Assembly: GCF_028693135.1 (NCBI RefSeq)
Contig: NZ_JAQUVZ010000005.1
Location: forward strand, 1 to 64,000
DNA length: 64,000 bases
Reading direction: 5' to 3'
Source of the DNA: Methanosarcina sp.
GTDB lineage: Archaea; Halobacteriota; Methanosarcinia; Methanosarcinales; Methanosarcinaceae
The position numbers were made by a program, and so were the translations under genes. This document shows positions 22,269 through 61,809 of this stretch, piece after piece. Numbering within the stretch: the first letter of the stretch is position 1; every line of letters begins with the position of its first letter. The notes below the pieces were generated by a model, which was not told the origin of the DNA, searched no databases, and worked only from the letters and a program-made list of their open reading frames with translations.

Positions 22269-22443
22269 ACATCTGAGGATAAAACCTCTGTTCTCTTCAC
22301 CTGCAGCCACTTTACCCATAGAATAAAATCGAACGTAAAAAGGAAAAGCAACGAGATACTTTAAAGAAAAAATAATTTGAGAGTCTCTTATAACTTGAGA
22401 GTCTATGCACGAATAATGGCTCTTCGCTATTTCGAGGATAATT

Positions 22444-24045
22444 GTAACTATTCAGCCATACCTTTAGTAAAAGCAATTTTCCTCTTTCCGAGGAAAAATT
22501 GCATATAAAATAACCCTCTTTTTCAACATCATGCTTACACGTGAAGAGATCCTTGGAATCTATGAAGCTGGTCCTGAAGCAGTTATTGCTGTAATTCAGA
22601 GACTTGATTATATCATAGAGAAACAAGCTTCTCAGATTGCTGAACTTGAAGAACGTGTAAGAGTTTTAGAGGCTCGTTTGAATCAAAACAGCCAAAATAG
22701 CAGTAAACCTCCTTCTACTGATGTTTTTTGTAATGAAAAACCTAAACCTAAGGGTCTCCGCAAGAGTAGCGGCAAAAAAGCTGGTGGCCAAAAAGGTCAT
22801 CCTGGAAAGACTTTTGAAATGGTTGAAAACCCTGATTAGGTCATAGTCCATTCACCGGACTGCTGCGAAAATTGTGGTCATCATCTTGAAGATACTGAAG
22901 TTGATGACTATGAACGCAGGCAAGAAGCTGAAATTCCTCCTGCAAAAATCATAATTACTGAACATCGTTGTGAAATCAAGAAGTGTCCTCACTGTGGGAA
23001 AGTTAACAACGGCTCTTTTCCAGAGTCTATAAAATTCCCAATTCAATATGGACCTCGTCTTTTAGCCTCAATTATGTATTTTAGGAACTATCAATTGATT
23101 CCTTATGAAAGAACTTGTGATTTAGTAGAGGATGTCTACGGTATACGTATCAGCCCAGCTACCATAAAAAGAGCGGAAAAGGAATGTTTCCAGAACCTGG
23201 AACTTTTTGAAAAAGCTGTTATGGAACGTCTATTAGTTTCCCATTCTGCACATTGTGATGAGACAGGGATGAGAATTTTAGGGACGAAATGGTGGCTTCA
23301 TGTAGTATCAAACAGTCTGTGGACCTACTATTTTGCACATCCAAAAAGAGGGACAGAAGCAATGGATGCTCTGGGATTCCTTCCACAATACAAGGGAGTA
23401 GCAGTTCATGATGGACTTGCTTCATACAACAAGTATGGATGTGAACATGCTCTGTGCAACGCTCATCTTAAACGGGAACTTACTGGGATTGAAGAAAATT
23501 TTAAGCAGCAATGGGCTAAAAAGATAAATGAACTCCTCAGTGAGATGAAAAAATATACTGATGAATGCAGACAGATGGAAATTCCAATAGATCCAGAAAA
23601 AGTAAGGGAATTCGAGGAAGTATACGATGCAATAATTCAAGAAGGAATCGAGGAAAATCCACCACCTGATACCTCAAAAGATCAGGTGAAAAAGAGAGGA
23701 AGACCAGCACAAACAAAAGCAAAGAATCTCCTTGATAGGTTCATAATACACAAGGAACCGATTCTGAGATTCCTCAATAACCTGAGAGTGTCGTTTGATA
23801 ACAATCAAGCAGAGAGAGATATCAGAATGATGAAGCTACAACAGAAAATTTCGGGAACTTTCCGAAGCATAGAAGGAGCGGTAGCTTTCTGCAGAATTAG
23901 GGCATACATATCCTCAATTAAAAAGAATGGCATGAATGTAATGGATGCTATTCTAGCGGTGCTCAACGGAGCACCGCTATTATCCTGAGAATTGCAGCAT
24001 TTTGCTGAAAAAACATACTTTTTTTATCAGTGGCTGAATAGTTAC
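22444..24045 (+). mobile_element. IS66-family insertion sequence, complete
   Basis: This 1602-bp element is bounded by perfect 15-bp inverted repeats: GTAACTATTCAGCCA (22444-22458) and TGGCTGAATAGTTAC (24031-24045). It is flanked by a perfect 8-bp target duplication GGATAATT (22436-22443 and 24046-24053). Eight bp is the usual IS66 duplication length. The intact ends and duplication indicate recent insertion. It carries only the transposase gene, without the IS66 accessory ORFs tnpA/tnpB, as in the ISBst12-type subgroup. Confidence 0.95.
22531..23988 (+). CDS. IS66-family transposase with one in-frame TAG
   Basis: The reading frame runs 486 codons from the ATG at 22531 to TGA at 23986-23988. 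It is broken only by a TAG at 22837-22839 (…MVENPD-TAG-VIVHSPDCC…); everything after it stays in the same frame. The N-terminal leucine-zipper-like helix (QIAELEERVRVLEARLNQNS) is followed by the SSKPPS motif, a Cys4 zinc finger (CCENCG … CPHCG) and the DDE domain (HCDETGMRILGTKWWLHV; VHDGLASYNKYGCEHALCNA; NQAERDIRMMKLQQKISGTF). In Methanosarcina TAG can be decoded as pyrrolysine, so the gene may be functional. A simple nonsense mutation is the alternative. Confidence 0.85.
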
Positions 24046-24195
24046 GGATAATTTATAATCATATTCCATTTTGTGAGCAACACATATTAAATTTAAAAAT
24101 ATTTTTTGTATAAAATCACATACAAGATCGATGTTTATATTTTTGGAACGGTAACTTTCCAACTATACAGTAATTTTCAACCCATACAAACAGCG

Positions 24196-25361
24196 GGTAG
24201 TCAGTTTGTATTTGATTGATATTATATATTATAAATTATGTGTATTATTATTATGGGTAAAAGAGGTCCAAAACCACAATTCACTGATGTTGCCTGTCTG
24301 AATAAAGACTGTGAGCTCTATGGTCTTACTGATCAAGGCAATGTTGTTGGAAATGGGACTTACATAAGCCGTGGAGAAAAAACAAGAAGATACATTTGCC
24401 GTCACTGCGGCAAAGCATTTTGCGACCATACAGACACTTTTTATCATGATCTTCGCAAAGCTGAACAAACTATCGATTTAGCTCTAAAAATGTCTATGAA
24501 AGGTATGAGTATTGCGGTCATTGCAGATGTTTTAGAGGTTCAATCAGCAAGTGTAAAACGATGGTTAGCTCGTGCAGCTGAACAATGCGATAAAGTAAAT
24601 GATACTTTGATGACCAATTTAGATGTACCCAAGATAGAAATGGATGAGATGTGGGTAATAGTTAAAAAAAAATAGTTCCTAGAATGGAAGTATATGAAGA
24701 TGATGGGCCATGGATGTGGGTAGCTTTTGCAACAAATTGCAGGTTAATAGTCACTTTTATCATCGGTCCAAGAAAACAGTATGTTGCAGATGAATTAGTG
24801 AAGTTAACAGCTGATTGTCTTTCTGAGACTATACCGGTTTATGTTACAGATAGACTTGATTTTTATAAAGTAGCTCTTTTGAATCAATACGGAGTACGGA
24901 TCGAGTATCCGAAAACAGGGAAAAGAGGTAGACCAAAGAACCCGGAAATTGTTCCACCTGAGGATTTGAAATATGCACAGGTAGTCAAAAAAAGAAAGGG
25001 AGGGAAGCTCCAGAAGGTTGTGAGAAAGGTCATATTTGGAGAAGACATAGAGCAAAAAGAGATATCAACAAACTTAATTGAAAGACAAAACCTAACTTTC
25101 AGGCAGGATAACAACAGGGTTTCGAGAAAAACGATCGGATTCTCGAAAGGAGTAAAAGAGTTGGTGAACCAAATGAAGCTTTACTGCACCCACTTTAACT
25201 TCTGTAGAGAACACGGGGGATTGGAGTATAAAGATGAAAGGGACGTTGAATGTAAAAATACACCTGCGAAAGAATGCGGAATTACAGATTCAAAGTGGAC
25301 ACTACGAGACCTTCTAACATTTAAGTGTTTTAAAACATCAGTCATATAACAATGGACTACC
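24196..25361 (+). mobile_element. IS1-family insertion sequence, complete
   Basis: This 1166-bp element has imperfect ~24-bp inverted ends: GGTAGTCAGTTTGTATTTGA at the left, and GGTAGTCCATTGTTATATGA when the right end is reverse-complemented. It is flanked by a perfect 8-bp target duplication AAACAGCG (24188-24195 and 25362-25369). The duplication shows that it inserted as a unit and recently. It lies 150 bp from the IS66 element, between the M48 protease and the archaeosortase gene. Confidence 0.95.
24238..25349 (+). CDS. IS1-family transposase, needs -1 frameshift
   Basis: Frame 1 (24238-24675; the ATG at 24253 is an equally good start) encodes a zinc-ribbon (CLNKDCELYG … YICRHCGKAF), a helix-turn-helix (IAVIADVLEVQSASVKRWLA) and the first DDE Asp (KIEMDEMWVIVKKK). 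It stops at TAG (24673-24675), directly after nine A (24664-24672). Slipping back one base on the A-run gives ATA GTT CCT AGA and continues as IVPRMEVYEDDGPWMWVAFA. The second frame carries VTDRLDFYK and the IS1-type end NLIERQNLTFRQDNNRVSRK. IS1 itself uses -1 frameshifting on an A-rich site, so this is likely programmed recoding rather than decay. Confidence 0.85.
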
Positions 25362-47218: not shown

Positions 47219-47362
47219 TTTTTCCACAACTCTTCTTTTCTTTAACCTTTTTTAAATTTTTTTTTATTTATTAAATAATTTATGTTGATTTCACTTTTGA
47301 AAACCCTATCGTTTTCCTTGAAACGTCGAATAAGTCAGAGGGATTACTTCCCTTTCTCTTAA

Positions 47363-47396
47363 GAACCGGACTTGCATCTTTCAATGCATCCGGCTC
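47363..47396 (-). ncRNA. group II intron domain V
   Basis: The minus strand reads GAGCCGGATGCATTGAAAGA and continues to CCGGTTC over 34 nt, the usual domain V length. GAGC pairs with GTTC, the stem GCCGGA.../...TCCGGT is interrupted by a bulge, and the terminal loop is GAAA. This is the catalytic core element of group II introns. Confidence 0.8.
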
Positions 47397-47452
47397 AAGC
47401 ATTATATAACCCTTTATGTATCAGGCGACAGTTTTTTTTCCAAAATGGCATC

Positions 47453-47764: not shown

Positions 47765-48381
47765 CCCTGGGCCCTCTCAGCTCATCCGGCTCCCATTATC
47801 CAGCCCCTTAAGGCCTTATTTTGTCCATGGGTTCCTCCCTTGCTAACCAAGGTTGACCGTAGTTCAAAACTGGATAATACAATCCCTTCGCTCCATGCCC
47901 ATTACAGGCACTTCATCACTACTACGAATTGTTCCGCCCCTGCAACATTGCATCGATACTTTAGTCCTTGCAGGTCCACTGCTTGGAGTTTTCTCTTAAC
48001 ATCAATGTGCAGGATCCCAAGTTCCATAGAGAAGCCTGTGCTAAGTTCACGCCAACTTTATGCCGGTCACCGTCTGGTCAGTAAACAGGGTATCTTCCAG
48101 ACTCATCCCAGGTTACAGACTCACCCTGGTTTTGATGACATCTAAGGTGGTTTCGATACGTCAACACTGGTTCAGTTTCATTCAGCTCCCTATCACGTAC
48201 CTGGCGAAGTCACAGCCTCGCCTTTTCCCATAATGCTCACCCGTGGCTTTTGACCAAAGCAGCTTATGGTGGTTTGAAATCACTTCCTGTAAAGCGAATT
48301 CGAGGGGTCTACCCTCATCTTCTCTATAGCATAACTATCCAATGTGACAATTTTGTTACAAGGTTCGCTTTCGTGGTGCAC

Positions 48382-61489: not shown

Positions 61490-61809
61490 GTGAAGCCGAA
61501 ATTTGTCAATTACCCCTCCCTAAAACCTTCACCTAACGGCTCAGGTTTTTGAGGAAGGAGCTTGTCTAACAAGCCCTGGTTGACCAGATCACCGATTAGG
61601 AGCAATGGAAAATCGGTAAACGATAGGAAAGAAATAGTTACCCTTGAATGTCGCCTCAGTTTAAGGCTCTAAGGATGCCGGTTAAACAGTCCTGAGAGGT
61701 AGGGACAGTGCTTGCATCGTTAAACCTTTCCATATCAGATCGAGAGGAGGACGGATTCCGGAATTGACTCCACAATTCGGATACGCATAACTCTTCGGAG
61801 GAAAACTAT
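61490..61809 (+). ncRNA. HEARO / omega-RNA of the IscB element
   Basis: About 320 bases between the kinase stop and the iscB start are rich in stem-loops and purine-rich conserved-looking blocks: TTGAGGAAGGAGCTTGTCT, GAATGTCGCCTCAGTTTAAG, AAGGATGCCGGTTAAACAGT and GGTAGGGACAGTGCTTGC. HEARO RNAs (now called omega-RNA) occupy exactly this position before IscB-type HNH ORFs and carry the guide at their 5' end. The assignment rests on position and pattern. The 5' end and guide, near 61475-61510, cannot be fixed by eye. Confidence 0.75.

Follow-up and report, generated by a model that had tools for sequence, protein, structure and literature searches.

The window, by which is meant the whole 64,000-nucleotide stretch of Methanosarcina sp. 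DNA analysed here, carries an IS66-family insertion sequence with a TAG codon inside its transposase frame. The features of the element are:

22436-22443, no strand assigned: left copy of the target site duplication, GGATAATT, 8 bp
22444-24045: IS element, 1602 bp, with perfect 15-bp ends and an 8-bp target duplication
22444-22458, + strand: left terminal inverted repeat, GTAACTATTCAGCCA, 15 bp, perfect
22531-23988, + strand: IS66-family transposase frame, 485 residues with the TAG read through, TGA stop
22594-22809, + strand: DUF6444 domain (Pfam), residues 22-93
22837-22839, + strand: in-frame TAG, codon 103, between D102 and V104; candidate pyrrolysine codon, conserved clade-wide
22837-22936, + strand: match to Rfam RF02513, PYLIS_6, 'Pyrrolysine insertion sequence transposase 2', 101.1 bits (gathering threshold 80)
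22855-22998, + strand: zf-IS66 zinc finger (Pfam), residues 109-156
23044-23883, + strand: DDE_Tnp_IS66 catalytic domain (Pfam), residues 172-451
24031-24045, - strand: right terminal inverted repeat, perfect partner of 22444-22458
24046-24053, no strand assigned: right copy of the target site duplication, GGATAATT

The first-pass annotation had described a frame of 486 codons, open apart from the TAG at 22837-22839 and continuing into a Cys4 zinc finger and a DDE domain. Translation of 22531-23988 confirmed that this TAG is the sole internal stop, and both IS66 domains downstream of it score above their cut-offs (PF03050 at 212 bits, PF13005 at 40 bits). The zinc-finger residues C112, C115, C152 and C155 are invariant in 50/50 homologues, and the candidate DDE residues D243, D294 and E428 show no variation across a 22-row alignment. 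A structure model (mean pLDDT 79), which served for domain borders only, places a long helix at residues 15-55 (coiled coil), a disordered linker at residues 53-93 and then the zinc finger and catalytic fold.

The boundaries of the element display the traits of the IS66 family, namely inverted ends that start with GTAA, present on both sides, and a duplicated 8-bp target. Canonical IS66 elements also carry the accessory genes tnpA and tnpB, which were not found here. Both are missing from the ISBst12 subgroup of IS66, and a length of 1602 bp, which leaves space for one transposase ORF only, fits this single-ORF type. Bacterial ISBst12-like elements (ISGka4, L143) likewise have a single transposase ORF with IS66 domains at 38% identity, but four bacterial copies carry a sense codon at the TAG site (GAA, GAA, ACA and CAT). 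The element had been called freshly inserted on the strength of its perfect ends and perfect duplication. Both are as described, and with no other full copy present in its genome the description is a fair one; however, no immediate donor was seen, since the nearest copies found are only 95.4% identical at the DNA level.

Other mobile or structured elements lie in the same window. An adjoining IS1-type transposase (24238-25349) is encoded in two overlapping frames that a -1 frameshift would join where nine consecutive A residues precede TAG, and looks like a case of ordinary programmed frameshifting. A HEARO RNA was found at 61505-61752 (+ strand, 111 bits), and pieces of a group II intron at 47325-47398 and 48199-48316 (- strand).

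The host genome contains a tRNA-Pyl gene (anticodon CTA) followed by pylS, pylB, pylC and pylD, all adjacent, with each of the four proteins above its own NCBIfam cut-off; fragments of MtmB are also present, at contig ends. This complete cassette supports the earlier proposal that the host would decode TAG as pyrrolysine. TAG is in ordinary use as a stop as well, as it terminates 2/42 non-overlapping long ORFs of the window in a mechanical count. In two other Methanosarcina genomes (G017 and G018, 73% and 92% complete) PylS and PylD were not over cut-off and IS66 was present only as wrecked remnants, a possible loss of the Pyl system; Pyl-positive genomes such as G008 likewise hold nothing but wrecked IS66 remnants, so these genomes lend no support to a connection between losing Pyl and decay of the element.

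Homologues were sought in 31 genomes of the genus, 112 of the family and 238 of the class. Among the matches listed, about 65 full-length copies in 13 genomes, all belonging either to Methanosarcina or to a single neighbouring Methanosarcinaceae genus, contain exactly one TAG. Alignment with other copies had been suggested as the check on the pyrrolysine reading, and the TAG proved to be conserved at the homologous codon in 42/42 distinct full-length copies checked, in proteins that diverge to 60-94% identity. The opposite pattern, in which near relatives would have a sense codon at the site and the TAG would not be conserved, was not seen: among the matches listed, no full-length Methanosarcina copy of the codon-103 (site A) clade has a sense codon without a TAG. 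Outside the clade, GAA (Glu) occupies the site in 17 aligned rows, and CAT or CAC in four more distant ones. With the bacterial copies as root of the tree, in which the TAG was uninformative (X treated as a gap), the TAG103 clade has support of 97/89, site A has a single origin and Glu is the likely ancestral residue at codon 103. Fourfold sites in 29 rows predict about 8.5 changes of the codon-103 TAG under neutrality, against one parsimony change observed (Poisson P of about 0.002, a rough value as parsimony counts are minima). Because it is conserved throughout the site-A clade despite this expectation, the codon-103 TAG is, on the comparative sequence evidence, old, conserved and not due to chance. 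Viral contigs contained no relatives of the transposase.

Transposases of this kind have been described before. The match to PYLIS_6 begins at the first base of the window TAG, and matches to PYLIS_6 and PYLIS_5 (RF02512) across the clade start at the TAG. Two transposase clusters are listed among known pyrrolysine genes (Have et al., 2013, PMC3639795); the transposase2 cluster had three members from one organism, and the mean TAG-to-stop distance of the second transposase cluster, 1149.7, compares with 1149 in the window copy. A copy in a complete 5.75-Mb genome (L022) matches PYLIS_6 at 136.5 bits, whereas the window copy comes from another species and is 88% identical to L022 in protein sequence. 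PYLIS_5 ('transposase 1') corresponds to a sister subclade with its TAG at the homologous codon, but its proteins are only about 60-67% identical to that of the window copy. According to a 2010 review (PMC2933860), M. acetivorans and M. mazei both have transposases with a conserved in-frame amber, which their M. burtonii relatives lack, and the function of the amber is left open; here, too, relatives from other genera lack the amber, and the window copy adds a further species. PMC8211752 credits the pyrrolysine transposases to Zhang et al. (2005). Given the PYLIS_6 match and these publications, the TAG transposase is an already described kind, published from about 2005 onward and represented by Rfam families of its own, and the pyrrolysine reading is no novelty.

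The RNA stem implied by the Rfam models was considered as a signal and rejected, as compensatory change is absent from all 11 pairs of the Rfam model. In 18 distinct sequences from the wider clade the PYLIS_6 stem downstream of the UAG had 73.7% of cells paired and no pair with two-sided changes, leaving this part of the model without covariation support, and a fresh consensus fold of the region was weak (-2.2 kcal/mol, one compensatory change). The missing covariation agrees with reports (PMC2933860) that PYLIS is not essential.

Evidence that the TAG copies are functional came from selection and from mobility. Pooled dN/dS values were 0.33 upstream of the TAG, 0.24 over the first 65 codons downstream and 0.17 over the remainder, and those of the TAG copies resemble the values of sense relatives. 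The complete genome G010 holds nine TAG copies that are 100% identical over 1600 bp, of which 7/9 have their own perfect 8-bp duplication. The other two, L104 and L108 (G010:C1 2358257 and 3963851), lie in opposite orientation and carry each other's duplication halves (AAAATAAA/GAAAAATT), a sign of chromosomal inversion by recombination between both copies. A second complete genome, G009, holds about 22 full-length TAG copies. Because no full-length sense-codon copy was found in G009 or G010 among the matches listed, the amber form must itself make transposase, unless an outside element was the source, and amber copies transpose without a visible helper. Conservation, selection, the proliferation of TAG copies and the host Pyl cassette together bear out the earlier view of the TAG as a probable conserved read-through codon in a working transposase. 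The safest statement is that the codon is read through, most likely as pyrrolysine, in an active transposase. The earlier interpretation is supported in part, and its proposed tie between transposition and methylamine physiology is no more than a possibility.

Ambers at two other positions are the parts of most specialist interest, and neither the second (codon 120) nor the shifted one (codon 99) is mentioned in the accessible portions of PMC2933860 and PMC8211752. A sister lineage (L089 in genome G002 and L060 in G038, 79% identical; clade of 31 rows, 100/98) accounts for two of the rows with GAA at site 103 and has its own single TAG 17 codons downstream, at window codon 120, which is Glu in nearly all TAG103 rows. 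Frame, ends and 8-bp duplications are intact in L089 (315-1742) and L060 (1504-2844). The lineage, to which L090 and L091 also belong, comprises two intact copies, one per genome, and five 5'-damaged copies; no Rfam family covers it, and no PYLIS match was found at its TAG120. The third variant, L087 (G010, 383-1837, - strand), is a singleton with TAT (Tyr) at codon 103 and TAG at codon 99, and again has an intact frame, ends and duplication. Its TAG99 sits in a divergent segment of 100 bases, where 17-19 differences occur compared with about five elsewhere, and L087 may therefore be a mosaic. In the structure model, sites 99, 103 and 120 all fall between the helix/coiled coil and the catalytic domain. 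The amber may have been gained at least two times, at codon 103 and at codon 120 in the sister lineage, and shifted once, to codon 99.

A mechanism based on pyrrolysine read-through, with the amber as a possible throttle, is the best explanation as a whole and is probably right. The transposase mRNA would present a single UAG, positioned after the N-terminal coiled coil and ahead of the zinc finger/DDE part, and tRNA-Pyl(CUA) would decode a share of these UAGs as pyrrolysine, yielding full-length active transposase. The remaining UAGs would terminate translation in competition with this, leaving an inactive 102-residue coiled-coil peptide, and transposase supply would thus depend on charged tRNA-Pyl. 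The component claims differ in strength. Reading of TAG103 through as pyrrolysine is very probable, judged from the genomic evidence, whereas a regulatory role of the amber has a likelihood slightly short of even. The data favour a throttle over a required pyrrolysine side chain, since related lineages retain a single amber that sits at another codon close by. A throttle would also account for the retention of one amber, for its changeable position and for termination leaving only the coiled-coil peptide; this support consists of a small sister lineage (two intact copies) and the singleton L087, and the comparisons are post hoc. In other Pyl-encoding genera the IS66 relatives have the sense codon GAA (Glu), so in principle IS66 transposition would need no pyrrolysine.

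The same Glu elements, which thrive in those genera, fit a competing explanation in which TAG103 is read as pyrrolysine but serves no regulatory purpose and is a tolerated, fixed oddity, arising by constructive neutral change or with pyrrolysine now needed locally. This is a realistic prospect, if one we would not bet on. It is in keeping with a tree on which site A arose once and with the structure model, in which residue 103 opens a predicted strand that precedes the zinc finger and residues 99 and 120 lie in predicted coil. It does not sit easily with the near-absence of change at the TAG relative to the neutral expectation, with the fact that the only copy without TAG103 (L087) has a new TAG four codons off, or with the separate TAG in the sister lineage.

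Were the TAG instead a true stop, two proteins would be made, the second from an internal start. Candidate starts can be found, an ATG 79 codons past the TAG in the window copy and, for many members of the other subclade, a TTG 6 codons past the TAG, but no start codon position is common to the clade. The window copy has no start in the 78 codons past the TAG, yet these include the zinc-finger stretch, which is under selection (0.24) and keeps its four invariant Cys residues, and homologues from other genera are a single open frame. With no conserved start and with selection on the zinc-finger stretch, this reading was ruled out as highly improbable. Least probable of all, and rejected, is the pseudogene reading, in which the TAG would be a nonsense mutation and the dead copy would owe its movement to a functional relative acting in trans: the window copy is the single full copy in its genome, and N-terminally damaged sister-lineage copies with their own duplications in G002 indicate that movement in trans may occur, but the same TAG recurs in 13 genomes across the divergence given above, complete genomes rich in identical TAG copies have no full-length sense copy among the matches listed, and selection is purifying downstream of the TAG.

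Returning to read-through with the amber as a throttle, we tentatively suggest that Methanosarcina IS66 elements may be selected to keep one amber between coiled coil and catalytic domain, at any position, as a recoding switch. If this is true, the level of charged tRNA-Pyl would determine how much coiled-coil peptide is made relative to full transposase, and the amber would be a stop-codon counterpart to the programmed frameshift of other insertion sequences. Natural pyrrolysine proteins beyond the methylamine methyltransferases are, to our knowledge, very few, and the IS66 amber transposases are among the most numerous candidates. The comparative evidence removes the pseudogene reading, as TAG copies have spread without a visible sense helper, and the natural variants at three amber positions make the choice between a needed residue and a throttle a testable question.
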